Below the pieces are notes generated by a model. It was not told where the DNA came from and searched no databases. It saw nothing but the letters and a program-made list of their open reading frames with translations. A stretch of 37,830 bases of DNA from Deltaproteobacteria bacterium (GTDB taxonomy: Bacteria; Desulfobacterota; BSN033; UBA1163): the NCBI GenBank assembly GCA_018333535.1, contig JAGXTA010000110.1, positions 1 through 37,830 of the forward strand, given 5' to 3'. A program made the position numbers and the translations under genes. Positions 357 through 35,775 of this stretch are shown piece by piece. Position 1 is the first letter of the stretch; each line of letters starts with the position of its first letter.

Positions 357-1679
357 TCATTCCTTTTCCAGCATCCCCTCCTGTATCTTTCTCATCATGG
401 CAATATTTTCTGTATGGCCGGTCAGGTGGGCCGTCACTTTTCCCCGGACCGGGCGATTGAGCAGATAGAAATCACCGATCAGGTCGAGAATCTTATGCCG
501 GACAAACTCATCCAAAAATCTTAGCTCTGTGTTGACGATCTTCTCGTCGTCCACCAGGATGAAGTTGTGGAGGCGCCCTCCGCTGCCCAACCCCATCCGT
601 TCGAGCATCTCAATATCCTTCAAAAACCCGAAGGTCCTCGCAGGCGCGATCTGTTCCTTGAATTTCTCCTCATTTTCCAATACGAAATCGAGAGTCTGCT
701 GCCCGATGGGAGAGGGGTAGTCCAAAAAATAATGGATGGAAAAGGTCTCCGCCGGTTCAATGATGAGTGACTTGCCCCTATGGACGACTTCGAACCTTCG
801 ATCGATCACGATTTCGTTCGCCCTCTCCTCCTGCTCCTCGATCCCAGCCTCCTCAATGATCTTGCAGAACGCCAAGGCAGAGCCATCCATGATCGGAATC
901 TCTTCGATCATCTTCACCATTAAATTGGTGATGCGATAGGCATGGAGCACTGCCATCAAATGCTCGATCGTCTTGGCAATGGCCACTCCCTTTTTCAGAG
1001 AGGTGGCAAATTCGGTTGTCTGGACATAGTCGAGATGGGCCGGAACTACCTCGTCATATGAGATGTTCCCGAAAAGGATGCCGCTATGAGGAGGGAGAGG
1101 CTGAAGGAGGAGCCCTGTCTTCATCCCGGAATGGAGCCCCGTTCCGTAGAGGACGACGCTTTTTTTGATCGTCCGCTGAAGAGTGAGAGAGGTTGATTTT
1201 CTCTTCGGACTCTCTTTGAGAGGAACTGTCTCAGGTACGGAGGAAAGGAGAAGAGAAGGAATATCCGTTTTCCCAGAGGGGGTCTCCCGTGGTTGCTCGT
1301 CCACCGATAGTTGCATTTGGCGGTCGAGGGCCCTACGAATCGTCATGAGGAGAACATCGAGGGAAACGGGTTTTTCAATGAAGTCAAAGGCTCCCAGCTT
1401 GACGGCAGCCATCGCAGTGGAAATCGTCGCATGGCCAGAAATCATGATCACCTGGCAATCGGGAACCATTCCCTTAAACCGTTTTAAGACCTCGATGCCA
1501 TCCATCCCCGGCATCCAGATATCGAGAAGGGTGACATCCGGGTTTTCCCGTTGAAAGGCTTCAATCGCTTCCTCGCCGCTCTTGGCCGAGGAAACCCGAA
1601 AGCCTTCGTCTTCGAGGACGCCCCTGACCGACTGGACCACTCTCTCCTCATCATCCACAATGAGGATTTTTTTCTCCAT
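357..1679 (-). CDS. lpxC: Response-regulator receiver domain fused to LpxC (UDP-3-O-acyl-GlcNAc deacetylase)
   Basis: LpxC is the zinc deacetylase of the first committed step of lipid A synthesis, acting in the cytosol on UDP-3-O-acyl-GlcNAc. The ATG at 1679 follows GGGAG by 5 nt and gives 440 residues; an in-frame ATG at 1712 would add 11 residues and lacks such a site. Counting from 1712: residues about 14-130 are an NtrC-type receiver domain with acidic pair D20-D21, phospho-acceptor D64 in LLDIWMPG, S92 and K114 in EKP. A polar linker (about 131-175) follows. Residues about 178-451 are LpxC: GTGLHSG, E250-H251 in TIEHL, EIPIMDGSA, ARTFGF, H406 and D410 in RHKILD, and H433 in TGH, so all zinc and catalytic residues are present. 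The C-terminus ends GMLEKE and lacks the LAxxxxxAVLA degron through which FtsH degrades E. coli LpxC. No histidine kinase is visible nearby. Phosphorylation control is inferred. Most bacterial LpxC proteins are about 300 residues with no receiver. Confidence 0.93.
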   Translation of the reverse strand: MEKKILIVDDEERVVQSVRGVLEDEGFRVSSAKSGEEAIEAFQRENPDVTLLDIWMPGMDGIEVLKRFKGMVPDCQVIMISGHATISTAMAAVKLGAFDFIEKPVSLDVLLMTIRRALDRQMQLSVDEQPRETPSGKTDIPSLLLSSVPETVPLKESPKRKSTSLTLQRTIKKSVVLYGTGLHSGMKTGLLLQPLPPHSGILFGNISYDEVVPAHLDYVQTTEFATSLKKGVAIAKTIEHLMAVLHAYRITNLMVKMIEEIPIMDGSALAFCKIIEEAGIEEQEERANEIVIDRRFEVVHRGKSLIIEPAETFSIHYFLDYPSPIGQQTLDFVLENEEKFKEQIAPARTFGFLKDIEMLERMGLGSGGRLHNFILVDDEKIVNTELRFLDEFVRHKILDLIGDFYLLNRPVRGKVTAHLTGHTENIAMMRKIQEGMLEKE

Positions 1680-1737
1680 ACGCTCTCCCATGATCTGTAT
1701 TTCCATTACCACAACCAGGATGAAGAATCAACAACTT

Positions 1738-11286: not shown

Positions 11287-12504
11287 TCAGTCCGCCTGTT
11301 TTCTTAAAAAAGTGGGGATGTCAAAACGGTCCTCATCCTCAATGGCAAAATCGGACGGAGAATCCAATTTCAACTCATCGAATCGTTCGTTGGCTTTTAC
11401 CCTTCTCATAAAAGCGGGAGTTTCCCGGTTTCCCTCCTTGACGCTGATGGAGAAGGGAGGGATCTCTTTGCTGCGGTCCTTGAAACCGGGAATATGAGAA
11501 AATCGTTTTACCCCGGAGGGAACCGGTTTATCCACCCTTTTCTCTATGGCCTTGCCGAAGCCGGTGGCAATCACGGTGATCCGGATATCCTCTTTCATGG
11601 ACGGATCGATAACCATCCCCCAGATGACATTTGCATCTTCATGGGCCTCTTTCTGGATAAGGCTTGTCGCTTCATTGATCTCGCTGAGGGTCATATTCTC
11701 TCCGCCGGTGACATTGATGAGCAGTCCCCTGGCTCCCTCGATCGAGATATCCTCCAGGAGCGGACTCGAGATCGCCTTCTGGGCGGCCTCCAATGACCGA
11801 TTCTCTCCGGAAGCAATTCCCGTTCCCATCATTGCCATTCCGGTTTCAGACATAACGGACCGCACATCGGCAAAATCGAGATTGATGATTCCATGCCCGA
11901 CAATGATATCCGAAATCCCTTTGGCCGCATGGTAGAGAATCTCATCCGCCTTTTTAAAGGTCTCCAGTAAGGTCATATTCTTGCCGCTGATGCTCAGGAG
12001 CCGTTGATTCGGAATGGTGATCAGGGCATCCGCTGTCATCTTCAGATTGGCCAAGCCTTCTTCCGCCTGTTTCATCCTCTTCTTTCCCTCAAAGTGAAAG
12101 GGTTTGGTGACGATGGCGACGGTAAGCGCGCCCATCTCACGGGCCACCTCTGCGATCACCGGAGCCCCCCCTGTGCCGGTTCCTCCGCCCAGGCCGGCGG
12201 TGATGAAGACCATGTCCGCTCCTTTCAGGATCTCGCGGATCATCTCCACGTCCTCCAGAGCCGCCTTTCTCCCGACTTCCGGATTAGCGCCGGCTCCCAG
12301 GCCTTTGGTCAAACTGGCCCCCAACTGAAACTTCATCGGAGACAGGTTTGCCGTCAATGCCTGCGCATCCGTATTGGCTGCGATAAATTCAACACCGGTG
12401 AGTTGACTCGAAATCATGGTGTTCAGAGCATTGTTCCCTCCTCCACCGACCCCGATGATCTTGACCCTGGCGGCCATGTTTCTGTTCTCGTCAAATTCGA
12501 TCAT
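11287..12504 (-). CDS. ftsZ: Cell division GTPase FtsZ
   Basis: FtsZ is the bacterial tubulin that forms the Z-ring at the division site. The 405-residue protein has IIGVGGGGNNALN (16-28), the tubulin signature GGGTGTG (106-112), the synergy T7 loop NLDFAD (208-213) and a C-terminal variable linker ending in the conserved peptide DIPTFLRKQAD. That peptide binds FtsA and other membrane tethers; here it is the extreme C-terminus. AAGGAGG lies 7-8 nt before the ATG. It is the last gene of the dcw cluster, after ftsA and an inverted repeat (12558-12642), and is followed by a repeat array. Confidence 0.98.
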   Translation of the reverse strand: MIEFDENRNMAARVKIIGVGGGGNNALNTMISSQLTGVEFIAANTDAQALTANLSPMKFQLGASLTKGLGAGANPEVGRKAALEDVEMIREILKGADMVFITAGLGGGTGTGGAPVIAEVAREMGALTVAIVTKPFHFEGKKRMKQAEEGLANLKMTADALITIPNQRLLSISGKNMTLLETFKKADEILYHAAKGISDIIVGHGIINLDFADVRSVMSETGMAMMGTGIASGENRSLEAAQKAISSPLLEDISIEGARGLLINVTGGENMTLSEINEATSLIQKEAHEDANVIWGMVIDPSMKEDIRITVIATGFGKAIEKRVDKPVPSGVKRFSHIPGFKDRSKEIPPFSISVKEGNRETPAFMRRVKANERFDELKLDSPSDFAIEDEDRFDIPTFLRKQAD

Positions 12505-12557
12505 ATCTCCCTCCTTTTTAAGAGATTAAAAGATTAAAGATGGAATCTTAAAAGGTC

Positions 12558-12642
12558 GTCATCCCCGTCTTGCGGCAGGAACGGGAATCCAGGGAATTCT
12601 AACTATATGAAAATACTGGATTCCTGCTTGCGCAGGAATGAC
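12558..12642. repeat. Nested inverted repeat between ftsA and ftsZ (GTCAT...GGAATCCAG type)
   Basis: The left arm (12558-12592) runs from GTCATCCCCG to GGGAATCCAG. The right arm (12616-12642) starts CTGGATTCCTGCTTGCG and ends CAGGAATGAC. The ends are complementary and each arm is itself a hairpin. The same family occurs at 26155-26287, where the right arm differs at only 3 positions. It may fold in the ftsA-ftsZ mRNA. Confidence 0.85.
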
Positions 12643-12664
12643 AAAAATCTCCTTTTCAGACTTT

Positions 12665-13912
12665 TTACGAGATCATCATTATTCCATTAAAAAAATCTCT
12701 TATCCATTCTTTCATTCGCCGGGTGACTTTGCTGAAGATATTCCCCTCGCCCACTTTAAACCGGCTCTGGGCCTTATTTCGGCTTCCATAAAGGACGAGG
12801 CCCACTCCGGTGGCATAGATCGGGCTGTTGACCAGGTCGACCAGGCCTCCGATCCCAATGGGCGTTCCTCTCCGGACAGGCAGGTTAAAGATCTGTTCGG
12901 CTAATTCGGGAATTCCCTCGAGGATAGCGCTCCCCCCTGTGAGAATCACTCCCGAGGCAAGAAGATTCTCATAACCCTTCTTCACCCATTCATCTCGAAC
13001 CAGAGTGAGGATCTCGTCCACTCTGGGTTCAATGATCTCCGCAAGGTTCTGTCTCGAAAGGACACGGGGCTCCCTTCCCCCTACGCTGGGAACTTTGATC
13101 GTCTCATCCTTCCGAACCAGAGAGGTAAGCGCGCATCCATAACGAATCTTAATCTTCTCGGCCTCGTCCACAGGCGTGCGAAGCCCTACGGAGATATCGT
13201 TGGTAATATGGTTTCCAGCCAGAGCAAAGACAGCCGTATATTTGATCGCTCCGTTCGAAAAGATGACCAGGTCCGTTGTCCCGCCGCCAATATCGATAAT
13301 GGCCGCTCCCAGTTCTTTCTCCTCGGGGGTCAGCACCGCTTCGCTCGAGCCCAACTGTTCAAGGACGATATCATCCACATCGAGTCCGGCGCGGTTGGCG
13401 CATTTGATGATGTTCTGGGCAGAGGTAATGGCTCCGGTGACGATATGAACCCTTCCCTCCAATCTCACCCCTGACATCCCGACCGGATCCTTGATACCGT
13501 CCTGATCATCCACGATGAACTCCTGTGGGATGATGTGGATGACTTCCCGATCCATTGGGATGGCCACCGCACTGGCTGCATCGATGACCCGCTTCACATC
13601 ATTGGGTGCGATCTCCTTGTTCTTAACAGCGATCACCCCATGGCTGTTGATCCCTTTAATATGTCCTCCTGCAATGCCGGCATAGACAGAAGTGATATGG
13701 CAATCGGCCATCAGTTCAGCTTCTTCAACCGCTTTTTTTATGGACTGGACCGTGCTTTCAATATTGATGACCACACCCTTTCGCAACCCTTTCGATGGAA
13801 AGGTGCCAAGGCCAATGATATTGACCTGGCCATCTCCCACCTCTCCCACTACCGTGCAGATTTTTGTTGTCCCGATATCCAATCCGACGACCAGCGAATC
13901 CCTCTTGCCCAT
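12665..13912 (-). CDS. ftsA: Cell division protein FtsA (actin-like Z-ring tether)
   Basis: FtsA links FtsZ to the membrane and recruits later division proteins. The 415-residue protein has the actin-like phosphate motif VVGLDIGTTKICTVVGE (8-24), DIGGGTTDLVIF (about 215-226) and GGSAILEGIPELA (about 326-338). The C-terminal segment VTRRMKEWIRDFFNG is the amphipathic membrane-targeting helix. The ATG at 13912 follows a near-perfect anti-16S ribosome site. It is 7 nt downstream of the ftsQ stop and 160 nt before ftsZ. Confidence 0.98.
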   Translation of the reverse strand: MGKRDSLVVGLDIGTTKICTVVGEVGDGQVNIIGLGTFPSKGLRKGVVINIESTVQSIKKAVEEAELMADCHITSVYAGIAGGHIKGINSHGVIAVKNKEIAPNDVKRVIDAASAVAIPMDREVIHIIPQEFIVDDQDGIKDPVGMSGVRLEGRVHIVTGAITSAQNIIKCANRAGLDVDDIVLEQLGSSEAVLTPEEKELGAAIIDIGGGTTDLVIFSNGAIKYTAVFALAGNHITNDISVGLRTPVDEAEKIKIRYGCALTSLVRKDETIKVPSVGGREPRVLSRQNLAEIIEPRVDEILTLVRDEWVKKGYENLLASGVILTGGSAILEGIPELAEQIFNLPVRRGTPIGIGGLVDLVNSPIYATGVGLVLYGSRNKAQSRFKVGEGNIFSKVTRRMKEWIRDFFNGIMMIS

Positions 13913-13917
13913 CTTCG

Positions 13918-13929
13918 GATCACCTCCTT
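13918..13929 (-). promoter_or_regulatory. Extended ribosome binding site of ftsA inside the end of ftsQ
   Basis: The coding strand reads AAGGAGGTGATC, matching 12 bases of the usual 16S rRNA 3' end. It overlaps the last codons (AGG AGG TGA) of ftsQ, coupling ftsA translation to ftsQ. It is the strongest ribosome site noticed in the cluster and may set a high FtsA level. Confidence 0.85.
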
Positions 13930-14750
13930 TCTAATTTGACCTGCGGGGAATTTTTTTTGACCACCATTCTTTTCAGATCACTGCAGTCGATCGACCCTGC
14001 CGAGACGCCCCTCTTCTGAAGGTCCGACCAGATGAGAGACAATCTCCTCAATTTTTCTCCAAAGTGATCCCACCCCATCTTCACCTCCACCCCCTCGGCC
14101 TGTGTGAAACAATGAATTCCGAAAGCCTTCTCCATCCGGATTTCCGAAACTCCATCCAGGGGACGAGCCTTTTCCTGATCCACGATCCTTAAAAATTCGA
14201 GCGCTCTTGCGATGAGATGTTTTGCCGCGGACGGATCTTTATTAAACATCTGCCGTGTCAAACCGGTAAGAAAGGGAAAATCATATTCATCCCGATCTCC
14301 CACCCTCGAAAAGATCACTCCCTTCGAATCGATATAAAAAGGCTCCTCTAATTGAAGGATGGCCATCGGCTTTCTCTCCTCAATATGAATCAACACTCTG
14401 TCCGGAAAAATTTTTCTCACCCTCACATGCTCAACCCAGGGATGAGCCTCCACACGGACGGAGATCTCCTTCAGCGGAAGGGTGAAGAGATTGGGCTTTC
14501 CTTCGATCTTTGCAAGCGAGAGAATGGTCTTCTCCGGGATTTTCTTGCAGCCTTTGATCTCTACCTCCTTCACCTGGAAAAACGAGTCCTCCAGAAGGTG
14601 GACATACAATTGATGGCCCGCGAAGAAAAGCAATATGAGAAAAAGGATATGAAAAGCCACCCGAACGGCTCCTTTTAGGATTTTCTGAAATCTCTCTCCT
14701 ATCCTTTCGTCCCCTTTCTTCTCCGGTCTGAAAAATTTTCCCTCACTCAT
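13920..14750 (-). CDS. ftsQ: Cell division protein FtsQ
   Basis: FtsQ/DivIB bridges early and late division proteins in the periplasm. The 276-residue protein has a basic cytoplasmic N-terminus, one membrane helix (FHILFLILLFFAGHQLYVHL, 33-52), a POTRA domain (FQVKEVEIKGCKKIPEKTIL, 58-77, to IHIEERKPMAIL) and the beta domain ending about residue 270. The length matches the family. The ribosome site is weak. It overlaps the ftsA ribosome site and follows ddl across a 71-nt gap containing repeat words. Confidence 0.93.
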   Translation of the reverse strand: MSEGKFFRPEKKGDERIGERFQKILKGAVRVAFHILFLILLFFAGHQLYVHLLEDSFFQVKEVEIKGCKKIPEKTILSLAKIEGKPNLFTLPLKEISVRVEAHPWVEHVRVRKIFPDRVLIHIEERKPMAILQLEEPFYIDSKGVIFSRVGDRDEYDFPFLTGLTRQMFNKDPSAAKHLIARALEFLRIVDQEKARPLDGVSEIRMEKAFGIHCFTQAEGVEVKMGWDHFGEKLRRLSLIWSDLQKRGVSAGSIDCSDLKRMVVKKNSPQVKLERR

Positions 14751-14762
14751 ATTCGCCTGTCG

Positions 14763-14842
14763 AACGTGGAAGGTGGCATGTGGTGTTTAATAAATTTTTT
14801 CAAATAACTACTTTCCACTTTCTACCCTCCACTCTCCGTCTT
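14763..14842. repeat. GTGGAAG/CTTCCAC-type word array between ddl and ftsQ
   Basis: The left arm has GTGGAAGGTGGCATGTGGTG. The right arm is ACTTTCCACTTTCTACCCTC then CACTCTCC. The array includes the last codons and stop of ddl (tail TESGG). Confidence 0.6.
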
Positions 14843-15766
14843 TAACGCCGCCCCCAACAGGATCCGCTCCGCCAGCTCTCCGAAAGAGATGCCTACAAAC
14901 TCCGCGGCTTTGGGCAGGAGGCTCGTCTCCGTCATCCCTGGCATCGTATTCACATCGATGACAAAAGGATTTCCTTCCTCATCCGTCATCAGATCGACCC
15001 TGGCGCAACCCGAGCAACCAAGCGCCTGAAAAGCCCGAAGGCTGATCTCCTGGGCATGAAGATACTTTTCTCTAAGAATCCGGGCCGGGATGATATACTC
15101 GGTCTCCCCTTTCGTATATTTCGAATGGTAATCATAGAACCCGCTCCTTGGAGCGATCTCGATGATGGGAAGGGAAATGTCATTGAGAATGCCCACGGTG
15201 ATCTCCTTCCCCTTCATAAAGGCTTCGATGAGGATTTCTTCATCGTATTTTCCTGCCTCCTTCAACGCCCGCGGAAGTTCTTCCTCCCTTCTGACAATGG
15301 AGATTCCGATTGTGGATCCTTCCCGTGCGGGCTTAACCACCAGCGGAAGAGGAAGGGAAATTTCCCCCAGCGCCTCTTTCTCAACCTCCTCCCGTTTGAG
15401 GAATTCGAAGGGGGGGGTTGGGATATTCTCATGGAGCAAGATCTTTTTGGCCATGATCTTGTGGAGGCAGAGCGCGCTCGCCAGAACACCTGATCCGGTG
15501 TAAGGAATTCCCATCAACTCCAGCATTCCTTGAATCGTCCCATCCTCTCCATACCTTCCGTGGAGAGCGATAAAAGCTATTTCAATCTTTTCTTTCATCA
15601 ACTTTTCCGCAATGTCCCGGCCCACATCGATGCAACAGGCCGTATATCCTTTTTCAACAAGAGCCTTCCGTATCGCCTTTCCTGTCCGGAGCGAAATCTC
15701 CCTCTCCCGGGAGAGGCCTCCCAGCAGGACGCCGATCTTCTTTTTCTTAAGGGGTTGATCCTTCAT
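14822..15766 (-). CDS. ddl: D-alanine--D-alanine ligase
   Basis: Ddl makes the D-Ala-D-Ala dipeptide that MurF adds to the muropeptide. The 314-residue ATP-grasp protein starts KKKIGVLLGGLSREREISLRT (8-28). It has GRYGEDGTIQGML (about 70-82), PAREGSTIGIS, the omega-loop KYTKGETEYIIPARI whose tyrosine favours D-Ala over D-lactate, and DVNTMPGMTETSLLP near the C-terminus. The ATG at 15766 has only GGCGGTAG upstream. It sits between murB and ftsQ as in many proteobacteria. Its last residues are encoded by repeat DNA. Confidence 0.97.
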   Translation of the reverse strand: MKDQPLKKKKIGVLLGGLSREREISLRTGKAIRKALVEKGYTACCIDVGRDIAEKLMKEKIEIAFIALHGRYGEDGTIQGMLELMGIPYTGSGVLASALCLHKIMAKKILLHENIPTPPFEFLKREEVEKEALGEISLPLPLVVKPAREGSTIGISIVRREEELPRALKEAGKYDEEILIEAFMKGKEITVGILNDISLPIIEIAPRSGFYDYHSKYTKGETEYIIPARILREKYLHAQEISLRAFQALGCSGCARVDLMTDEEGNPFVIDVNTMPGMTETSLLPKAAEFVGISFGELAERILLGAALKTESGG

Positions 15767-15782
15767 CTATCTACCGCCAAAA

Positions 15783-15830
15783 CTCCGCCGTCTTTATTCC
15801 GCATTCCGTATTCCGAAATCCGCATTATTG
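15783..15830. repeat. ATTCCGC/ATTCCGT direct word array between murB and ddl
   Basis: TATTCCGCATTCCGTATTCC and AAATCCGCATTATTG form about five copies of an (A)TTCCG word at 7-8 bp spacing. Part of the same word set reappears at 16842-16858 (TTCCGCATTCCGAAATC), on the other side of murB. Confidence 0.7.
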
Positions 15831-16742
15831 TTCACCCACCACCCTCACCTCCCTTTTCAGGGAGATGGACTTCTTCTCGTAGACCTTTTTCTCCACCCAT
15901 TCGATGAGATGGAGAACCTCTTCCGCGGTCGCCTTTCCCAGGTTGATGATAAAATTGGCATGGCGATCTGAAACCATCGCCTGTCCCATCCTGAACCCTT
16001 TTAACCCGATCTCATCAATCCACTTTCCTGCCGGGCCTTCCTCCGGATTTTTAAAAATGGAGCCTGCGCTCGGGTAATCGAGAGGCTGCGACCTCTTTCT
16101 CATCTCCGAAAAGGACTTCACGCGCTCAAGGATCTCCTCTTTTCTTCCCTTCTTCAGATGGAAACATCCTTTCACGATGATCCAGGATGGAGGCAACGTC
16201 AGACTCCGATAAGAGAACCGGAGCCTGGACCGGGGCCTCTCCAACATCTCTCCATCCTCTTTCATAAACGTGACGGAATGGATGACATCCTTCAACTCCG
16301 CCCCCCATGCGCCGGCATTCATGGCCAGCCCTCCGCCCACAGTGCCCGGAATGCCAAAAAAAGGCTCAAGTCCGGCAAGCCCTTTTTGAATGGAGAATTG
16401 AACGAGCTGTTGGAGCGAACAGCCGGCTTCAGCCTTCAGAAACTCTCCATCCATCCGAACCTTTTTCATCCCTTGGGTCAGGCTGACCACCCAGCCCCGA
16501 ATTCCTCTGTCTCTCACGATGAGGTTCGTTCCTTTTCCTAAAATGAAGACGGGAACCCTTTTTCTCCGAGCATGCAGGATCACCTTTCTCAGTTCCTTCA
16601 TGTTTTCCGGAAAGAGGAGACAGTCCGCAGGGCCTCCCACTTTGAGGGAGGTGTATTTTTTCATCGGCGCATCGAAAAGCGCCCTTCCCCCAATCAAACC
16701 CCTCGCTTCTTTTTTGTAATCTTTTGTCATCTGCCTTAGCAT
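15825..16742 (-). CDS. murB: UDP-N-acetylenolpyruvoylglucosamine reductase
   Basis: MurB reduces UDP-GlcNAc-enolpyruvate to UDP-MurNAc using FAD and NADPH. The 305-residue protein is the short type II form: KYTSLKVGGPADCLLFP (29-45), ILGKGTNLIVRDRGIRG (about 67-83) and FGIPGTVGGGLAMNAGAWG for FAD binding. The catalytic serine lies in YPSAGSIFKNP, and there is a C-terminal glutamate-containing EVRVVGE. The start is ATG 16742 or the in-frame ATG 16730. It lies between murC and ddl with repeat arrays on both sides. Confidence 0.97.
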   Translation of the reverse strand: MLRQMTKDYKKEARGLIGGRALFDAPMKKYTSLKVGGPADCLLFPENMKELRKVILHARRKRVPVFILGKGTNLIVRDRGIRGWVVSLTQGMKKVRMDGEFLKAEAGCSLQQLVQFSIQKGLAGLEPFFGIPGTVGGGLAMNAGAWGAELKDVIHSVTFMKEDGEMLERPRSRLRFSYRSLTLPPSWIIVKGCFHLKKGRKEEILERVKSFSEMRKRSQPLDYPSAGSIFKNPEEGPAGKWIDEIGLKGFRMGQAMVSDRHANFIINLGKATAEEVLHLIEWVEKKVYEKKSISLKREVRVVGEQ

Positions 16743-16749
16743 TTTAAGT

Positions 16750-16857
16750 TTGGATTCATTAGTCTTATAGTCGATTAGTCTGCTAGTCGAATAGTCAATA
16801 ACTATAAGACTACAAGACTATCGGACTACGGGACTATTCTTTCCGCATTCCGAAATC
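16750..16857. repeat. Two inverted arms of an 8-bp-period TAGTCnnn array
   Basis: The left arm carries five TAGTC words at 8-bp spacing (16759-16796) with linkers TTA, GAT, TGC and GAA. The right arm (16801-16837) carries five ACTA/GACTA words at 8-bp spacing with linkers TAA, CAA, TCG and CGG. The pentamers pair between arms, but the linkers do not. A tail TTCCGCATTCCGAAATC (16842-16858) joins another word family. This is not CRISPR: units are 8 bp and the arms are inverted. Confidence 0.9.
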
Positions 16858-18226
16858 ACAATCGCCTTACCATCTCCTCTGCCACCTGCCAGATGTCTCC
16901 TGCGCCCAGGGTGATCACCATATCTCCGGGAACCATGATGCGGACCAGATGGTTAACAATCTCCTTCTTGTCCGGAAGATAGGTCACATCCTTATGACCG
17001 TACTCTCTGATTCCCTCAAAGAGCGCTTTTGCTTCTACCCCATCGATCCGTTCCTCTCCGGCCGCATAGATATCCGTCAGAATGAGGACATCCGCATCGT
17101 AAAAGGCGGTCAGGAATTCCTGAAAGAGGGCGTGCGTCCGGGTATAGCGGTGGGGTTGAAAGACCGCAATGATCCTCCTCTTCCATCCTGTTTTGGCCGC
17201 CTTCAATGTGGCCATGATCTCCACGGGGTGATGGCCATAGTCATCCACGATGAGAATTCCTTTCTTCTCTCCCTTGACTTGAAACCGTCTTTGAATCCCT
17301 CCGAAATCCCTCAGGGCCTCCTGAACAACTTCAAAGGGAATGTCGAGTTCAAAGGCAGTGGCCACCGCAGCCAGCGCATTATAGACATTATGAAGGCCGG
17401 GCATTCGGATTCCTAACCTCCCGATTTCCTTTCGCTGATAGAGGACATCGAAGGTGGTGGAAAGTTCGTCGTATTCGATTTCCCTCGCCTGAAAATCAGC
17501 CTGGGTCGTCAATCCGTAGGTCGTGAACCGCTTCTTCAGTTTCGGAAGAAGGCTCTGGATATGGGGATGGTCGAGGCAGAGCACGGCCAACCCAAAGAAG
17601 GGAATCTTGTTGAGAAAATGGAGAAAGGCTTCTTTGATCTCCTCAATCCCCTGATAGTAGTCGAGATGCTCCGGATCGATGTTGGTCACCACAGCGATGG
17701 TGGGCATTAATTTAAGAAAAGAGCCGTCGCTCTCATCCGCTTCGGCGACCAGAAGCTCTCCCTGTCCCAGCTTCGCATTGCTGCCGATGCTGTTCAGCCT
17801 TCCTCCAATGACCACGGTTGGATCGAGCCCGGCCGCGCCCAAGATCGTCGCGATGAGGGAGGTTGTCGTCGTCTTGCCATGAGTCCCGGCAATGGCGATG
17901 CCCACCTTCATTCGCATCAATTCCGCTAACATCTCCGCCCTCGGAATGATGGGGATGAGCCTCTCCTCAGCCACTTCAATCTCTGGATTGTTCGGACGAA
18001 TGGCAGAGGAGACGACCACGACATCCGCCTCTTTCACATTCTCTCTCCGGTGGCCATAATGGATGTCGCAGCCCAGGGCCTGAAGCCTCCGGGTCACCTC
18101 TGTTTCCTTCGCGTCCGAACCGCTGATCCGGTAACCCAGATTGAGCAGAACCTCGGCGATTCCGCTCATCCCGATGCCGCCGATCCCGACGAAATGGATG
18201 TTTTTGATCTTCCCTTTTCGATACAT
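16856..18226 (-). CDS. murC: UDP-N-acetylmuramate--L-alanine ligase
   Basis: MurC adds L-alanine to UDP-MurNAc, the first amino acid of the stem peptide. The 456-residue protein has the N-terminal UDP-binding [20 protein letters not shown] (10-29), the ATP P-loop [10 protein letters not shown] (113-122), [13 protein letters not shown] and the C-terminal Mur ligase domain with [10 protein letters not shown] and FQPHRYTRT. The length is typical. There is no clear ribosome site before ATG 18226, where the upstream gap is repeat-derived. It lies between murG and murB. Confidence 0.98.
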
Positions 18227-18230
18227 AATA

Positions 18231-18290
18231 AGTTGAAAATTAAAAGTTCAGAGTTTAAAGTTTATTGTTTATCGTTCATCGTCATCAACA
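18231..18290. repeat. AAAGTTnA word array between murG and murC
   Basis: The stretch AAGTTGAAAATTAAAAGTTC then AGAGTTTAAAGTTTATTG and TTTATCGTTCATCG repeats GTT-containing 7-8-mers in one direction. No inverted second arm is obvious. Confidence 0.55.
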
Positions 18291-19367
18291 TGCTTTTCCC
18301 ACCAACTCATAACAATGCTCCACAATCTCTTCGGCCGCCCTCGGGCGTCCGATCCCTCTGATCGCTTCCTCCATCTTCTCCCTTTCCTCCGGATGATGGT
18401 AAAGGCTGCGGATCGCCTCGGAAAGCGACGAACCGTTCACCTCCTCATCCAGAATCATTTTGGCCGCCCCACGATCAACCAGCTTCTGCGCATTGATCAA
18501 CTGGTGTTGATGGGCCGCATAGGGATAAGGGATCAGAATCGATGCCTTTGCACAGACCGCTAATTCCGCAACCGTGCTCGCTCCGGAACGACAGATCACC
18601 AGGTCAGCCCTCCGGTAATAGCGCGCCATCTCCTCAATAAATGGGGCTACCTCCACCTCGAATCCCTTCTCCTCATAGCCTTTTGAAACGAGATCCAGAT
18701 CCTCTTTGCCGGTCTGATGGATAAATCTCAAAGAGGACCTGAGATCCTGGAGCGAGGCCAGGGCCTCCATCATGGCCGTATTGATCCGGTGTGCGCCCGC
18801 GCTCCCCCCAAAGATGAGAAGGGTGAATCGATCTCCCTTCTCCTGCGAAAGGGTAGAACCAATGATCTCTTTCCGGATTGGATTGCCCGTCACAACTGTC
18901 TTCCTCTCGGGAAAGTATTTTTTTGTCTCTTCGAAAGAAACAAATATCCGCTGGCTGAACCTCTTCAATATCCGATTGGTCATTCCTGGAATGACGTTCT
19001 GCTCATGGATGGCCCTTTTCATCCCGAGAAGAAAGGCAGCCAAAACTCCAGGCCCGGAAGCATATCCGCCCACACCTAACACGATCTGCGGTTGAAACTC
19101 TTTCAAGATGCCCATTGCCTCGGCAAGGGACTTTGGAAGGGCTAAGAGGGCTCTTAACTTTCCCATGATCGACCCTCCCTGAATGGGCATGGCATGGATC
19201 ATCTTCAACGGAAATCTCCCCCCGGCCAATACTCTCGCTTCAATCCCTCGCTCCGTCCCGATGAAAAGGACTTCATTTCCCGACTCCTTTTGGATAAAAG
19301 CTTCAGCAACCGCTATCCCTGGAAAGAGGTGGCCTCCTGTGCCTCCTCCGGCAATGACACATCTCAT
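18285..19367 (-). CDS. murG: Lipid II synthase MurG (UDP-GlcNAc transferase)
   Basis: MurG transfers GlcNAc from UDP-GlcNAc to lipid I on the inner face of the membrane. The 360-residue GT-B protein has CVIAGGGTGGHLFPGIAVAE (3-22), LGVGGYASGPG (about 96-106), LLIFGGSAGAHRIN and the donor-binding RADLVICRSGASTVAELA. All are standard MurG motifs. The ATG overlaps the ftsW stop by 4 nt (ATGA), so translation is coupled. Confidence 0.98.
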   Translation of the reverse strand: MRCVIAGGGTGGHLFPGIAVAEAFIQKESGNEVLFIGTERGIEARVLAGGRFPLKMIHAMPIQGGSIMGKLRALLALPKSLAEAMGILKEFQPQIVLGVGGYASGPGVLAAFLLGMKRAIHEQNVIPGMTNRILKRFSQRIFVSFEETKKYFPERKTVVTGNPIRKEIIGSTLSQEKGDRFTLLIFGGSAGAHRINTAMMEALASLQDLRSSLRFIHQTGKEDLDLVSKGYEEKGFEVEVAPFIEEMARYYRRADLVICRSGASTVAELAVCAKASILIPYPYAAHQHQLINAQKLVDRGAAKMILDEEVNGSSLSEAIRSLYHHPEEREKMEEAIRGIGRPRAAEEIVEHCYELVGKAC

Positions 19368-20464
19368 CGTCGTTCCGCATGGGTTGAAAGGTGAAGCAAA
19401 ATCCCCAACCCGATGAAATTGGCAATCAAGGATGTTCCTCCGTAACTCACAAAGGGAAGGGTCAACCCTTTGGTCGGAAGCAGTCCCAGGACCACTGCCA
19501 TATTGATGACCGCCTGAAGAGAGATCATTAACGTGATCCCCAGCGCCAAATAGGACCCGAACTTATCCGGAATAGAAATCCCGGTCTGGACTCCCCGGAA
19601 GGCAAGGATGAAAAAGAGAACCACCACGGCCATGGCCCCCATCAGTCCCAGTTCCTCTCCGATGATGGAAAAGATGAAGTCTGTGTGAGGAGCCGGAAGG
19701 AAGAAGAGTTTCTGTCTTCCTTCTCCCAGTCCCAGTCCAAAGAGACCACCCGAGCCAAAAGAGAGGAAGGACTGGATGATCTGAAAACTGGTTCCGGTGG
19801 GATCTTCCCAGGGCCTGATGAAACTGATCAGCCTTTTGTAACGATATTCCGCATTCATCAGAAGGACATAGGCCACCGGAGCAGCTAACAAAAAGGATCC
19901 GGCGATATAGATCACTCTGGCGCCGCTGATGAAGAGGAGGATTAAAACCATCGCTGTGAGAAAAAGGGCCGCCCCGAAATCAGGCTCCTTCAATACCAGT
20001 CCGATGACCAGGCCGGAGAGCAGAATGGTCGGGAGAAAACTGAAGGAAAAACTCCTTATCCTCTCCTCCTTCTTGGTCAGGAGGTAAGCTAAAAAGATGA
20101 TCAGGCCGAGCTTTGCAAATTCCGAGGGTTGAAAGGTAAATCCCCCGATCTTTAACCACCGCATCGCTCCACCTGCCCGATGGCCTATGCCCGGAATCAA
20201 TACGGCAATGAGCAGCAGAACAGAGAGAATAAAGATGGGATAGGCAAATCGCTTCAGTATCCCGTAAGGAAAGAACATCATCACGATCATCAATAGGAAA
20301 CCCACTCCTGCATAAAGCGCCTGCCTCTTCAAAAAGTAGTAGGGATCGCCAAACCGGTCTCCGGCGATGATCGCGCTGGTGCTATAGACCATGACGATCC
20401 CGATCCCCACCAGGGCCAGGGCCACCATTAGAAGAATGAAATCGAACCTTCCTCTTGCTTTCAC
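19364..20464 (-). CDS. ftsW: Septal peptidoglycan polymerase FtsW (SEDS family)
   Basis: FtsW polymerises lipid II at the septum together with FtsI. The 366-residue protein has about ten membrane helices, VYSTSAIIA near the N-terminus, the catalytic-loop region KEPDFGAALF, RPWEDPTGTSFQIIQS and GLGLGEGRQKLFFLPAPHTD (periplasmic loop). FVSYGGTSLIANFIGLGILL is at the C-terminus. The start is GTG at 20464, preceded by AGGA at about 7 nt. It follows murD across a long repeat-filled gap and overlaps murG by 4 nt. Confidence 0.97.
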   Translation of the reverse strand: MKARGRFDFILLMVALALVGIGIVMVYSTSAIIAGDRFGDPYYFLKRQALYAGVGFLLMIVMMFFPYGILKRFAYPIFILSVLLLIAVLIPGIGHRAGGAMRWLKIGGFTFQPSEFAKLGLIIFLAYLLTKKEERIRSFSFSFLPTILLSGLVIGLVLKEPDFGAALFLTAMVLILLFISGARVIYIAGSFLLAAPVAYVLLMNAEYRYKRLISFIRPWEDPTGTSFQIIQSFLSFGSGGLFGLGLGEGRQKLFFLPAPHTDFIFSIIGEELGLMGAMAVVVLFFILAFRGVQTGISIPDKFGSYLALGITLMISLQAVINMAVVLGLLPTKGLTLPFVSYGGTSLIANFIGLGILLHLSTHAERR

Positions 20465-20469
20465 CCTGT

Positions 20470-20690
20470 TTTCCTAACCTGGCCAAGCCAGGACCCAATA
20501 GGCTATAGAGTTGAAAAAATTCGAAGTCCGAATATCGGGCGAAGCGTCCAGTAGGACCAATCCGAAACAAATTCGAATTTCCCAAATTCAAATTTCTTAA
20601 AGTTTGTTTTAGTTTTCAACATTTGAAATTGGGTCATTCTATATTGTTTCGAATTTCGGATTTCGTGCTTCGGATTTGGTGCTTAATCTC
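20470..20690. repeat. Long composite array of TTCGAATT / TTTCGGATT words between murD and ftsW
   Basis: Plus-strand words such as AAGTCCGAATATCGGGCGAA, ATTCGAATTTCCCAAATTC and, after a TTTAG/CATTTGAAATTGGG middle, TTTCGAATTTCGGATTTCG and TTCGGATTTGG form two loosely inverted arms. The block extends into the last 12 or so codons of murD. Some words (GAAGCG, CCCGAATTTCG) recur at 29831-29855. Confidence 0.65.
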
Positions 20691-22024
20691 TGCACTGCTT
20701 CCTTAAACACCTTTCCCCTTTCTTTATAATCCCTGAACATATCAAAACTGGAACAGGCAGGCGAAAGGAGAACCACCTCTCCTCTTTTCGCCATCCGGTA
20801 AGCCAGAAGGACAGCCTCTTCGAGTGTCCCTGCCATGACTGTATCGGTCAAAGATCCCAGCTCCCGGGCCATTCTCTCCTTTGCCTCTCCGATGAGGATC
20901 ATCCGCCTGACACGGCTCTTTACCCACTCCTTGAGGGAATGAAGGTCTGTCATCTTATCCTTTCCGCCTGCGATGAGAATGACAGGCTCTTGAAAGCTCT
21001 GAAGCGATTTGATCACGGAGCCCAAATTTGTCCCCTTCGAATCGTTGTAATAGAAAACCCCTTCAATCTCCCGGACAAACTCGAGGCGATGTTCCAATCC
21101 CCTGAACCGGTTGATAACCCTCTGGATCGCCTCTTTCGAACTGCCGAAGAGCCTTGCCGCAATGATGGCCGCCATCATATTCTCCACATTGTGGATACCC
21201 TTCAACGGCGACTGGCTCAATGAATAGGTTTCTTCCCTTCCGTTCAATATGAGGACGACCTCCTCCCCATTGAAAAAGCCACCCTCTTTGACCCTCTCCT
21301 TCAGGCTGAAAAAGAATTTTTTTGCCTTCACCCTCTTCTCATGCTTCATTACAATGGGATCATCCCAATTGAGGATGGCCACATCCTCGGCCCCCTGGTT
21401 CTTAAAAATCCTGCTCTTGGCTTCAATATAATCTTCGTATTTCGAATAACGGTCGAGATGATCCTCCGTGATATTGAGCAGGACCGAACATCGGGGCCGA
21501 AACACATCGATCCCCTCTAATTGAAAACTTGAAACCTCAACCACCAGGATCTCCCATTGCTCTCCGCCCTCTGCGAAGAGGATCAAGGGATCTCCCACAT
21601 TGCCTCCGACTCCAACTTTCTTCCCTTCTTCCTTTAACATGTCGCCGATGAGAAGGGTTGTGGTCGTCTTGCCATTGGTGCCTGTGATCGCAATGATGGG
21701 GATGCGGATGAATTGGTAAGCCAGCTCCATTTCGCTGATCACCTGCACTCCCTTGTCCAGCGCCTTCCGAATGGGTTCGAGGGCTGGATCAACCCCCGGA
21801 CTCAGGATGATCAGGTCCTGCTTGAGAAACTGACTCACCGTATGCCCTCCCCACTCCAACGAGATGGACATCTCTCCTAACTCCGAAGCAACCTCCTTCA
21901 TCTCTGCTTCGAGCTTCGATTCTGAAGCGCTGACGATCGCCCCTTTCTTCTTGAGAAATTTGACCGTCGCCAGCCCTGTTCTCGCTAAACCCACCACCAA
22001 TACCTTTTTGCCGTGAAGATCCAT
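20639..22024 (-). CDS. murD: UDP-N-acetylmuramoylalanine--D-glutamate ligase
   Basis: MurD adds D-glutamate to UDP-MurNAc-L-Ala. The 461-residue protein has KKVLVVGLARTGLATVKFL (6-24), SPGVDP (75-80), the P-loop GTNGKTTTT (115-123), LNITEDHLDRY, the HN motif GIHNVEN and the C-terminal YNDSKGTNLGS and LIAGGKDK. The conserved domain ends about SSFDMFRDYKERGKVFKEAV. The final STKSEARNPKFETI is encoded by intergenic repeat DNA and has no counterpart in the family. There is no good ribosome site before ATG 22024; the upstream gap is a repeat array. Confidence 0.97.
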   Translation of the reverse strand: MDLHGKKVLVVGLARTGLATVKFLKKKGAIVSASESKLEAEMKEVASELGEMSISLEWGGHTVSQFLKQDLIILSPGVDPALEPIRKALDKGVQVISEMELAYQFIRIPIIAITGTNGKTTTTLLIGDMLKEEGKKVGVGGNVGDPLILFAEGGEQWEILVVEVSSFQLEGIDVFRPRCSVLLNITEDHLDRYSKYEDYIEAKSRIFKNQGAEDVAILNWDDPIVMKHEKRVKAKKFFFSLKERVKEGGFFNGEEVVLILNGREETYSLSQSPLKGIHNVENMMAAIIAARLFGSSKEAIQRVINRFRGLEHRLEFVREIEGVFYYNDSKGTNLGSVIKSLQSFQEPVILIAGGKDKMTDLHSLKEWVKSRVRRMILIGEAKERMARELGSLTDTVMAGTLEEAVLLAYRMAKRGEVVLLSPACSSFDMFRDYKERGKVFKEAVQRLSTKSEARNPKFETI

Positions 22025-22095
22025 AACGAGTTTTGAGTTTTGAGTTATGAGTTATGAGTTTATAATTCTTAATTCTCCACTCTTCACTCTAAATT
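22025..22095. repeat. GAGTTTT/GAGTTAT 8-mer array between mraY and murD
   Basis: GAGTTTTGAGTTTTGAGTTA is followed by TGAGTTATGAGTTTAT: about five 8-bp copies with a GAGTT core. A short opposite arm, TTCTCCACTCTTCACTC, has the ACTC complement. It directly precedes the murD ATG on its coding strand. Confidence 0.75.
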
Positions 22096-22100
22096 TCGCA

Positions 22101-23177
22101 TCATCTCAGCTTCAATGTGCCGATGGCGATCAGTCCCAGGATGATGCCGATGATCCAGAATCGGACGATGATCTTCGGCTCGGCCCACCCCTTCAATTCA
22201 AAATGGTGATGGATGGGCGCCATCCGGAACACCCTCTTCTTTCGCAACTTATACGAGATGACCTGAATGATGACCGAAAGCGTCTCGGCCACAAAAATCC
22301 CGCCCACGATCACCAAAAGAAACTCCTGTTTCGTGACCACGGCGATCGTTCCCAGGGCCGCTCCTAAAGCCAGCGAGCCGACATCTCCCATAAAGACCTG
22401 AGCGGGATAGGTATTGAACCAGAGAAACCCCAGGCCGGACCCGAGCAGGGCTCCGCATAAGATCGTCAGCTCGCCGCTCCCCTTCACAAAGGGGATCTGA
22501 AGATAACTGGCAAACTGGTAATGACCGGCTAAATAGCAGAAGAGGATGAAGGTGCCGCTGGCAATCAATACCGGTCCGATCGCCAATCCATCCAGCCCAT
22601 CGGTCAGGTTGACGGCATTGGCCGTGCCCACGATGACGAACATTCCGAAGAGAATGTACCATCTTCCGAGGTCCGGCATCACCCTCTTGAAGAAGGGAAA
22701 GATCAGTCTCGAATCGTGGTCAATGGTGTTGAACAGAACCCAGCTGGCCACAAGACCCATGGCCACCTGGATGGGAAATTTATATCGCGCCTTAATGCCC
22801 ATGCCATTCTTATCCCTGACCTTCTTGTAATCATCGAGAAATCCGAGCGCGCCGAATCCCAGAGTGGTCAACAGCACAATCCAGATATATCGATTGGTCA
22901 GGTCAGCCCAGAAAAGGGTCGGGACAAGAAGCGCCATCAGGATCAGGCTTCCTCCCATCGTGGGCGTCCCGTTCTTGGAGAGATGCCTCGATGGGACATC
23001 CTCTCTTACCACCTGTTTGATCTGAAACGTCCGCAACTTCTCGATGATCCAGGGGCCGATCACAAAACTGATGAGCAGCGCGGTCAGAATGGCGTAGACC
23101 GTCCGGATGGTGATGTAACGGAAGACATTGAAAAAGGAGATCAGCTCATGAAGCGGATAGAGCAGATGATAGAGCAT
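22101..23177 (-). CDS. mraY: Phospho-N-acetylmuramoyl-pentapeptide transferase (lipid I synthase)
   Basis: MraY joins UDP-MurNAc-pentapeptide to undecaprenyl phosphate in the inner membrane. The 358-residue protein has ten hydrophobic segments, the [13 protein letters not shown] motif (about 69-81), the aspartate-rich [25 protein letters not shown] and the C-terminal [13 protein letters not shown]. All catalytic aspartates are present. Its start lies inside murF (32-nt overlap), with AGGAGAGAGGAAAGAG as ribosome site within the murF 3' end. Confidence 0.98.
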
Positions 23178-24582
23178 CTCTTTCCTCTCTCCTTTCTTTC
23201 AAGCCCTCAACCACTTTTTCCATTGCCATCCCTCTCGAACCTTTGACCAGGACCCAATCCCCTTCCCTTGCCAACGCTCTCACGATCGAAGCGGCTTCGG
23301 AATGGCTCTCCGCCACTCTTGCCTTTTCATGATCCAAACCTTCCCGGATGGCCGACTCCACAACGACAGGGGCTTCTTCCCCTATGGCCAGCAATAGGTC
23401 GATCGAGAGCCCTGCAACCTTCTGTCCCAATTGGCAATGGGCCTCAACCGTGAATTCTCCCAACTCCAGCATATCTCCTAACACCGCAACGGCCCTGCCC
23501 TTTCCTTTTACTTCCGAAAGGGTCCGGAGGGCTTGATCCATCGAATCCGGATTGGCATTATAGGCATCGTTGATCAGGGTTATTCCGCTTCCAAGGGAGA
23601 GAATTTCCATCCTCATGGAAAAGGGCCGGAATTGTTCCAGAGCTTCTATCGCTCTCTCCAGTGCAATGCCGAAGAGGCTTGCGGTCGTAATCGCCGACAG
23701 GGCGTTGTAAACGAAATGCTTCCCAAGTAAGGGAAGATGGACCTCTGTCTCCTCCCCTTCCAGGATGACAATAAAAGAAGTTCCCTCTCTCCCTTTGATT
23801 CGTATCTCCCTCGCCATCACATCAGCAGGCTGATCGATTCCAAAAGTGATCTTCTGACCCGGAAACTCCTCTCCGAGATCAACCACCCTGGGGTCATCCT
23901 GATTGATGATGATCGACCCATCCCTTTTCATCCTCCGGAAGAGCGCCCCCTTTTCCTCCTTGATCCTCTCCAGGCTTCCTACCCCTTCGAGGTGAGCCCT
24001 CTGGATATTGGTGATCAGTCCCACATCAGGCTCTGCAATCTCCGTGAGCCTTCTGATTTCGCCCGGCACATTCATCCCCATCTCAACGACGACAACCCTC
24101 TCCTCTTCCGTCAGGTTGAGAAGGGTGAGAGGAAGTCCGATCAGATTGTTCAAATTTCCCTTCGTTTTGAGAATGGGAAAAGTGGTCTCAAGGCAAGCTG
24201 AAATCATCTCCTTCGTCGTGGTCTTTCCATTGCTTCCTGTCAGGGCAACCACCGGCACACCAAACTTGCGCCTTCGATCCCGGGCAATATCTCCAAGGGC
24301 ATACAGCGTATCCTTTACAAGGATCACCGGTCTGGTCTCGCAACCATTCCATCGGATATCTCCGGCCCTATTCTCTTCGATCACTACCCCCCCTGCTTTC
24401 TTCTCAAGGGCTTCGATGGCATAATGGTGGCCATCGAACCGATTCCCTTTCAAAGCGATGAAGAGCGCTCCCTCGGCTATACTTCTCGAATCCGTTGAGA
24501 TGGCGTGGAAAACGACATCCTCCCTTCCCTGTAGGAGTTTTCCGCCTGTGGCTTTCAAAATCTCTCCGAGATAAAACGTCAC
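23146..24582 (-). CDS. murF: UDP-MurNAc-tripeptide--D-alanyl-D-alanine ligase
   Basis: MurF adds the D-Ala-D-Ala made by Ddl, completing the cytoplasmic precursor. The 478-residue protein has the N-terminal [18 protein letters not shown] (29-46), P-loop [12 protein letters not shown] (115-126), [21 protein letters not shown] and the C-terminal [13 protein letters not shown]. The start is GTG at 24582 behind GGAGG (4 nt), overlapping the murE stop by GTGA. The 3' end overlaps mraY by 32 nt. Confidence 0.97.
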
Positions 24583-26108
24583 ACTCCCTCCAGCGCCTTT
24601 CTTGCTTCAACCCGGTCATCGAACGGGAACTTCTTCTTTCCAACGATCTGGTAATCCTCGTGGCCTTTGCCTGCGATCAAGACGATGTCTTCAGGCCGGG
24701 CCAACGCAATAGCCATCCGGATGGCTTCCCTCCGATCAGGAACCTTTAAGTAGCCCTTCTTTGATCTCCACGCCTCCATTTTGTTTTGATGCCATTCTTC
24801 GAGAGAAAGGGCCTGAAACCCTTTTTCCACTTCTTCGATGATGGAAAGAGGGTCTTCTGTCCTCGGATTGTCCGATGTGAGCACCACCAGATCGCTATAC
24901 CTCCCCGCCGCCTCTCCCATCAGTGGCCGCTTCGTCCGGTCGCGGTCGCCTCCGCAGCCAAAGACGGTGACGATCTTTCCGCAATTCTGTGATGAATAGG
25001 CCAGCGTGTCTCTCAGACCCGATAAAACCCTTTCCAGGGCATCGCGGGTATGGGCATAGTCCACAATGACATGAATGGATTTCCGGTTTGCCACCTTTTC
25101 AAACCTTCCTGAAACGCCCTCCACGTCTTCCACTCCCTCTTTCAGAATTTCCAGGGGAAAGCCCATTCCGAATCCCGTTGTGACTGCCGCCAGGATATTG
25201 TAGAGATTGATTCGTCCGATCAACTTCGAACGAAGTGAGAATCGACCTTTTGGAGTTCTGATCTGACAGGAGATGCCTTCAAAAGTGAGATTGACTTTTG
25301 TCGCTGAAAAATCGCAGGAGCTTCCCATGCCATAACGAAGGATGGGAAGATCGACTCCTCTGACGATCTCCTCTCCTCTCGGATCGTCCGCGTTGGTCAC
25401 GGCAAACCGTCCTGTCTTCCGGCTCTTCATCAACAATTCGAAGAAGAGCTTCCTTTTGCTTTCAAAATATCGTTCCAGGGTCTGATGGTAGTCTAAGTGG
25501 TCAGAGGTGAAGTTCGTAAAGATGGCTCCGTCGAACTGGCATCCGAAGACACGATCGAGGTCAAGGCCATGGGAGGAGACCTCCATGATCACATGCGAGA
25601 TCCCCTCCCCTGACATTTCTCCCAAAATTCTCTGGAGATCGAGGGATTCGGGCGTGGTGTTTAAGGCCGGAACGACCTTCTGGCCATACCGGTAATTGAT
25701 CGTTCCGATCACGCCCACTGCGTACCCCACTTTTTTCAATATCGATTCGAGGAGAAAGGTCGTGGTTGTCTTCCCATTCGTGCCGGTGATGCCGACCAGG
25801 CGCATTTTTGCCGAAGGATCGCCATAAAAGTTTGAAGCAACCCTTGCCAGGGCCTGACGGCTGTTTGGAACGAAAATGGCGGTCCTGCCACCCATCTCGG
25901 GTCCCTCTTCTAACAGGATGGCCTCCGCTCCTCTTTCCATCGCCTCATCGATGAAACGATGGCCATCCGCCTCCATCCCACGGATGGCCGCAAAGAGAAA
26001 GTTCTTGCCGACCTGCCGGGAATGGTAGGCAATCCCCTCAATCTCCTTTTGGGTCTGGCCGACGATCTTCCTGACCTCCACCCCTTCTAACAATTTCATC
26101 AGTTCCAT
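24579..26108 (-). CDS. murE: UDP-MurNAc-dipeptide--2,6-diaminopimelate ligase
   Basis: MurE adds the third stem residue. The 509-residue protein has the P-loop GTNGKTTTT (109-117), MEVSSHGLDLDRV, FTSDHLDYH and VDYAHTRDAL. The LTSDNPRTEDP motif contains DNPR, the signature for meso-diaminopimelate rather than lysine, so the organism should have Gram-negative-type cross-links. ATG 26108 has no clear ribosome site. It overlaps murF by 4 nt. It is separated from ftsI by 244 nt containing a nested repeat. Confidence 0.98.
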   Translation of the reverse strand: MELMKLLEGVEVRKIVGQTQKEIEGIAYHSRQVGKNFLFAAIRGMEADGHRFIDEAMERGAEAILLEEGPEMGGRTAIFVPNSRQALARVASNFYGDPSAKMRLVGITGTNGKTTTTFLLESILKKVGYAVGVIGTINYRYGQKVVPALNTTPESLDLQRILGEMSGEGISHVIMEVSSHGLDLDRVFGCQFDGAIFTNFTSDHLDYHQTLERYFESKRKLFFELLMKSRKTGRFAVTNADDPRGEEIVRGVDLPILRYGMGSSCDFSATKVNLTFEGISCQIRTPKGRFSLRSKLIGRINLYNILAAVTTGFGMGFPLEILKEGVEDVEGVSGRFEKVANRKSIHVIVDYAHTRDALERVLSGLRDTLAYSSQNCGKIVTVFGCGGDRDRTKRPLMGEAAGRYSDLVVLTSDNPRTEDPLSIIEEVEKGFQALSLEEWHQNKMEAWRSKKGYLKVPDRREAIRMAIALARPEDIVLIAGKGHEDYQIVGKKKFPFDDRVEARKALEGV

Positions 26109-26154
26109 ATCAAATAGATGTTAAATTTTAGCTTATTGAAAAGGTTCTTTGTCT

Positions 26155-26287
26155 GTCATTCCCGCTCAGGCGGGAATCCAGATGTCGTCTCTGCCCCTGC
26201 TTCCGCAGGGGTAAACTTGTCCCCGCGAAAGCGGGAGCAGGGAACCAGAAACATATAAAACTGGATTCCTGTTTTCACAGGAATGAC
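26155..26287. repeat. Nested inverted repeat between ftsI and murE
   Basis: GTCATTCCCGCTCAGGCGGG plus AATCCAG (26155-26181) pairs with CTGGATTCC...GGAATGAC (26261-26287). Between them lie two more hairpins, CCCCTGCTTCCGCAGGGG and CCCCGCGAAAGCGGG. The outer arms belong to the family also seen at 12558-12642. Comparable GGAATCCAG hairpins are frequent in environmental deltaproteobacterial genomes. Confidence 0.85.
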
Positions 26288-26352
26288 TCCTTTTTTTTGA
26301 TGGCATCTTCATTACATTCGCCACATTCGATGTCATTCGAATGATTCGCATA

Positions 26353-29566: not shown

Positions 29567-29580
29567 CAAATTCCATAATT

Positions 29581-35682: not shown

Positions 35683-35767
35683 CAATCAAATCAACCCGAC
35701 AGGGAATAAGCCCGGTTTGTTTTTAGTCCGGGGTAATTGCCCCGGCGGGTTATTTAGGTCGTTCGGC
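35677..35767 (+). other. Putative attC recombination site 1 (91 bp)
   Basis: It opens with ATCTAAC (R'', fits RYYYAAC) and closes with GTTCGGC (R'). After a 9-nt spacer, AACCCG (35693-35698) pairs with CGGGTT (35746-35751). The arms then pair with few mismatches and one bulged base through ACAGGG...CCCGG (35699-35715) and CCGGGG...CCCGG (35728-35745), around loop TTTGTTTTTAGT. Overall the strand folds into one long imperfect hairpin, the form recognised by integron integrases. R' departs from the GTTRRRY consensus at one position. Confidence 0.62.
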
Positions 35768-35775
35768 AATCGAAA

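Follow-up and report, generated by a model that had tools for sequence, protein, structure and literature searches.

A former NtrX receiver fused to LpxC as a probable phospho-switch driven by NtrY

The window analysed here (the whole stretch of 37,830 nucleotides) encodes an LpxC, the enzyme of the committed step of lipid A synthesis, with a response-regulator receiver joined to its N terminus. We consider it likely that this LpxC carries a former NtrX receiver as a built-in phospho-switch driven by the histidine kinase NtrY. The fused enzyme would probably take its orders straight from a membrane kinase and not by way of gene expression and, if this is true, it would represent a mode of LpxC control that is separate from both proteolysis and transcription. 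A preliminary description of this DNA had suggested a two-component switch built into LpxC; conserved phosphorylation residues, a low dN/dS in the receiver and the finding of NtrY now lend support to that idea at the level of sequence.

An intact receiver–linker–LpxC protein

The fusion is encoded by a single uninterrupted open reading frame on the reverse strand (357–1679; 440 amino acids plus stop). The ATG at 1679 is better placed than the alternative GTG start at 1712, having a plausible ribosome-binding site 5′ of it (putative GGGAGAG at 1683–1689, reverse strand, from reading the sequence) and being kept in relatives. As had been proposed, a receiver precedes a complete LpxC in one protein: Pfam Response_reg matches residues 5–114 (E = 5e-32) and the LpxC model PF03331 matches residues 168–433 (E = 1e-83; 281 bits against a cut-off of 27). 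The fusion is the sole LpxC of its source assembly (4.39 Mb, 192 contigs, 97% complete). That two genes were joined by an assembly or sequencing error, a frameshift or join that the preliminary description had named as a threat to its reading, has practically no likelihood: we exclude it because the same fusion, forming its own clade and with no stop in the linker, recurs in dozens of independent assemblies. Chromosome-level MAG records with the fusion include CP070817.1, CP070774.1 and OX638375.1. Relatives with two separate genes, the other threat named, do exist, but their LpxCs fall in another clade, one in which NtrX is retained. The fusion is genuine, intact and old.

The receiver (residues 1–122; 1314–1679, reverse strand) is supported by Pfam PF00072, a tree of receiver (REC) domains, NtrX-diagnostic residues and an AlphaFold model. 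It is complete, with the acidic pair D9 and D10, the phospho-acceptor D53 (codon at 1521–1523), the switch residue S81 and the conserved lysine K103 (1371–1373). The preliminary description had the correct residues and a different count: its D64 and K114, numbered from the GTG at 1712, are D53 and K103 when numbered from the ATG. All phosphorylation residues are kept in 39/39 aligned receiver–LpxC proteins and, in a wider set, in 59 of 60 receiver–LpxC fusions and all 19 longer ones; D53 follows the same counts, its sole exception among the 79 fusions of both lengths being one with a broken N terminus (L278), and K103 is present in all 79. Among close relatives, dN/dS is 0.06–0.08 for the receiver, 0.05 for LpxC and 0.41–0.48 for the linker, values that are rough because synonymous sites are near saturation, with a receiver–linker contrast that is large. 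Purifying selection on the receiver is almost as strong as on the LpxC domain and, given this low dN/dS and the conserved phosphorylation residues, the receiver is not vestigial.

The LpxC domain (residues 166–433; 381–1184, reverse strand) also matches the TIGR00325 lpxC equivalog (246 bits against a cut-off of 187), and its best Foldseek matches are the LpxCs of P. aeruginosa and A. aeolicus (TM 0.85–0.95 by target length). It has the catalytic E239 and zinc ligand H240 (960–965), the zinc ligands H395 and D399 in the motif HKILD (483–497) and the catalytic H422, the residues that define membership of the family, together with T349, K396 and D403; all eight are conserved in 39/39 fusions, in keeping with the complete set of zinc ligands first described. 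By these criteria of sequence and fold, the domain is a full member of the LpxC family and a predicted deacetylase. The E. coli enzyme ends in a hydrophobic degron, and comparison of tails confirmed that the window protein, which ends in EGMLEKE (360–380, reverse strand), has no degron of that type. This is weak evidence for a switch, because LpxCs other than that of E. coli also lack it (PMC12444477).

The two domains are connected by a flexible linker of about 45 amino acids (residues 123–165; 1185–1313, reverse strand; 26–63 amino acids in relatives). An AlphaFold model made with 34 fused sequences (a single model, pTM 0.63) comprises two well-folded domains and a linker disordered over residues 128–162 (pLDDT <50), and gives no confident arrangement of receiver and LpxC. 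The flexibility and fast evolution of the linker argue against a rigid receiver–LpxC contact; the signal could then act by self-association, by recruitment or by altered degradation. One candidate triple protein of kinase, receiver and LpxC, a 1067-amino-acid frame in L048, was rejected: its first 636 residues have no Pfam match and look like a shadow frame.

Descent of the receiver and spread of the fusion

The preliminary description had called the receiver NtrC-type, a label that our analysis replaces with NtrX-type. The receiver tree places the receivers of the fusions together with those of NtrX (support 91) and separates them from the remaining NtrC-type receivers encoded in these genomes; D24, W55, H83, E102 and S106 are common to fusion and NtrX receivers and mostly absent from the other NtrC-type ones. 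The fusion receiver departs from NtrX at positions 87, 109 and 116, in its C-terminal half. In the PDB, the receivers closest to it in sequence belong to the NtrC family; one of them is 4d6x, which we take to be Brucella NtrX.

Longer relatives have an AAA+ domain between receiver and LpxC. In many of these, a full-length NtrX profile covers positions 3–454 of 455, including a recognisable Fis helix-turn-helix; in most named long fusions of the Nitrospinota and Nitrospirota, the match ends near position 395. The sigma-54 contact motif GAFTGA was lost in 19/19 long fusions examined. In the window protein, Pfam detected neither an AAA+ domain with GAFTGA nor a Fis helix-turn-helix, bearing out the earlier remark that no DNA-binding output is fused to the receiver, and the NtrX model NF051870 scored 123 against a cut-off of 600. 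Judged by these profiles and the receiver tree, the window protein is NtrX-derived and not a member of the NtrX family. In unfused relatives, the recurrent gene order is lpxC, a DUF4390 gene, ntrY and ntrX. Profile coverage and motif loss together point to a series that runs from NtrX encoded beside lpxC, through a whole NtrX–LpxC protein and a receiver–AAA+–LpxC protein, to receiver–LpxC.

The architecture search and taxonomic mapping that had been recommended located the fusion not only in the window's genus and family but also in further families and in other phyla. Across 297 genomes sampled from the phylum of the window genome, most of them metagenome assemblies, 65 have the receiver–LpxC architecture; the fused type scored at least 351 bits, with every open frame at least 418 amino acids long, and ordinary LpxCs scored below 290 bits, leaving a clear gap. 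Fused-type LpxC is present in about 64 of 77 Nitrospinota genomes, mostly in open frames of 660–800 amino acids, a count that includes one match cut by a contig end and one in a 363-amino-acid frame. In the LpxC tree, fused proteins form one clade (100/100) and stand-alone proteins the other (100/100). Long and short fusions are interleaved within the fused clade, a pattern that probably reflects repeated loss of the AAA+ domain with retention of the receiver.

Several genomes carry more than one LpxC. Both types occur in G067, possibly owing to contamination. A single-contig chromosome (G020) has two diverged receiver–LpxC fusions about 130 kb apart (L128 and L129), the first identical to the fusion of CP070774.1. 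In G265 (L261:4516-5832) and G223 (L262:9262-10578), an extra, fast-evolving receiver–LpxC that stands beside an ordinary lpxC has GLMSG and TSH where others have GLHSG and TGH, and is possibly a paralogue with a changed function.

Loss of NtrX and retention of NtrY

The fusion has replaced NtrX, and NtrY has been kept. Profile searches found a strong NtrX match (E ≤1e-175, a cut placed after the bimodal distribution had been seen) in 1 of 65 fused genomes versus 189 of 206 unfused ones (Fisher P = 6e-45, which ignores shared ancestry and so overstates the association). NtrY was found in 63 of 65 fused genomes, the other two having no detectable copy, versus 191 of 206 unfused ones. Families f11, f29 and f51 contain both fused and unfused members, and the switch between them follows the expected direction. 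The exceptions are G296, a fused genome that keeps the full NtrYX pair, and G223 and G265, in which the divergent extra fusion accompanies an ordinary lpxC and ntrY.

It is improbable that the receiver is now a folding, dimerisation or membrane-recruitment module for which phosphorylation no longer matters. Some receivers do function unphosphorylated, and the departures from NtrX at 87, 109 and 116 could be read in that way; yet D9, D10, D53, S81 and K103 hardly vary even among fusions that are very diverged, where such a role would be expected to let them drift, and the loss of NtrX without the loss of its kinase also speaks against it.

A check for an orphan histidine kinase co-occurring with the fusion, as advised in the preliminary description, identified a single orphan NtrY. 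Many lineages, some with the short fusion and others with the long one, have ntrY immediately upstream in the same orientation, and the fusion takes the place of ntrX. The window genome encodes one full-length NtrY (C124:8130-10292; E = 2e-303), and the next kinase, at 5e-74, matches over the core only. This NtrY scores above the PF19312 cut-off and matches the NtrY alignment over its full length; the domain order in relatives is N-terminal region, HAMP, PAS, HisKA and HATPase, and the NtrY phosphotransfer helix (AWREVARRIAHEIKNPLTPIQLSAQRLRKRY) agrees with the family consensus. No response-regulator gene was found beside NtrY in the window genome or in 19 NtrY regions of relatives. On the basis of these matches, we regard it as the candidate cognate kinase of the fusion receiver. 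Because the window genome has NtrY on one contig and the fusion on another, their pairing in this lineage rests on descent and exclusion. The separate contigs, and the dozens of kinases in the genome, would also suit a reading in which another kinase or acetyl phosphate supplies the phosphate, or the receiver acts as a phosphate sink, with NtrY serving a different partner. We think this unlikely, given that many other lineages have NtrY and the fusion in one operon and that the NtrX-like receiver it would otherwise serve is gone from all but that one fused genome with a strong NtrX.

Other fused genera have a DUF4390 gene upstream of ntrY. In the genus of the window it is absent from that place (L190:10295-11117), and NtrY there may be without its former periplasmic partner. 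PlrP, the DUF4390 protein of Bordetella, appears to keep the kinase out of phosphatase mode (PMC13001219).

From a transcriptional circuit to a proposed enzyme switch

The link between this regulator and lpxC is older than the fusion. In Desulfovibrio vulgaris, lpxC is the single target of the regulator DVU2934, and in Syntrophobacter fumaroxidans the operon orthologous to that of DVU2934 is immediately preceded by lpxC (PMC3333781). By analogy of gene order, we infer that DVU2934 is NtrX, because a Desulfovibrio locus has the same succession of NtrY-like kinase, HD-GYP regulator and NtrX. In that locus (L104:3-7598), an 884-amino-acid receiver/HD-GYP-like protein lies between kinase and NtrX, as in the DVU2931/2933/2934 operon, which suggests a c-di-GMP link to lipid A control. 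In R. sphaeroides, deletion of NtrYX raised lpxC mRNA 8.8-fold and LPS about twofold, and lpxC has no NtrX site (PMC7240162); a 2025 review concludes that NtrYX controls many genes in this species and is not a specific modulator of LpxC (PMC12444477). With NtrX orthologues tied to lpxC expression in these papers, it seems that a regulator and its target have here become one protein.

We propose that the ancestor had the order seen in unfused relatives and that its NtrYX acted on lpxC transcription. In one LpxC lineage, a whole NtrX would have become joined to the N terminus of LpxC, after which the sigma-54 motif, the DNA-binding domain and the AAA+ domain would have been lost, leaving receiver, linker and LpxC. 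NtrY is a membrane histidine kinase whose sensor region lies in the periplasm; it would phosphorylate or dephosphorylate D53, and the phosphorylated receiver would alter LpxC output through its flexible tether. The most likely route would be changed self-association or enzyme access, affecting activity or stability, and not a rigid docked contact. The phosphotransfer from NtrY to D53, its consequence for LpxC and the direction of that consequence are all deduced; by analogy with Rhodobacter, in which NtrYX lowers lpxC expression, phosphorylation would lower LpxC output.

A possible but doubtful alternative is that the receiver is a phospho-gated stability tag, by which NtrY would set the degradation of LpxC by FtsH, Lon or ClpXP, in the manner of RssB or CpdR, with catalysis untouched. 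E. coli LpxC is controlled mainly by proteolysis, the absence of an E. coli-type degron could mean that the degradation signal has moved to the N terminus, and a delivery tag would benefit more from a flexible linker than an allosteric contact would. However, the locus has no linked protease or adaptor, and many unfused LpxCs also have no degron. A search with the LapB zinc ribbon model PF18073 was not specific, matching Gram-positive bacteria and proteins of about 460 amino acids that are probably RadA.

If NtrY does drive the fused receiver as a switch, control of LpxC by a kinase would be direct, fast and reversible, and the NtrY family would have an enzyme as a defined output. It would also make the poorly defined NtrY signal testable by enzyme assay. 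The surviving intermediates would document the collapse of a transcriptional circuit into direct control of its target, a course usually argued only in principle.

The closest known system is NtrYX itself (PlrSR in Bordetella), in which NtrX is a sigma-54-type regulator of envelope genes. The fusion shares with it the kinase family, the DUF4390 gene in many relatives, an NtrX-derived receiver and lpxC or LPS as the biological target (PMC7240162, PMC12444477, PMC13001219; DVU2934, PMC3333781), but its regulator, which has lost the transcriptional output, now forms one polypeptide with the target enzyme. Enzyme outputs are already known among response regulators, and an LpxC output is unusual. 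Like the methylesterase CheB, the diguanylate cyclase PleD and the zinc enzyme PorX, the fusion consists of receiver, linker and catalytic domain, and phospho-gating is to be expected; unlike theirs, its output is an essential, normally single-copy biosynthetic enzyme and not a signalling enzyme. We found no receiver–LpxC protein or LpxC output described in the open-access PMC literature, the scope of our search. Compared with control by FtsH, LapB and YejM in E. coli, the fusion has no C-terminal degron of that type, and the proposed signal is phosphorylation of the receiver by a kinase. LpxC–FabZ of the Bacteroidota likewise places LpxC within a fusion protein, but FabZ is a second enzyme, C-terminal and with no signalling role; the window protein falls below the cut-off for that family (NF009667, 204 against 465).

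In the window, the fusion is immediately preceded, on the same strand, by a radical SAM gene (1871–2899). Most of the family has a gene of the same length (about 342 amino acids) at this place, which ntrY occupies in other lineages. A dcw cluster on the strand of the fusion (11287–29569; ftsZ, ftsA, ftsQ, ddl, murB, murC, murG, ftsW, murD, an ftsI-type PBP gene and mraW) ends about 9.6 kb upstream of it. Imperfect inverted repeats on either side of the fusion gene (261–349 and 1740–1801) are possible terminators or dispersed intergenic repeats. At 34360–36834, a TIR-domain protein (35776–36834) is encoded beside a 440-amino-acid protein that has no Pfam match, and the two could be a defence gene pair.
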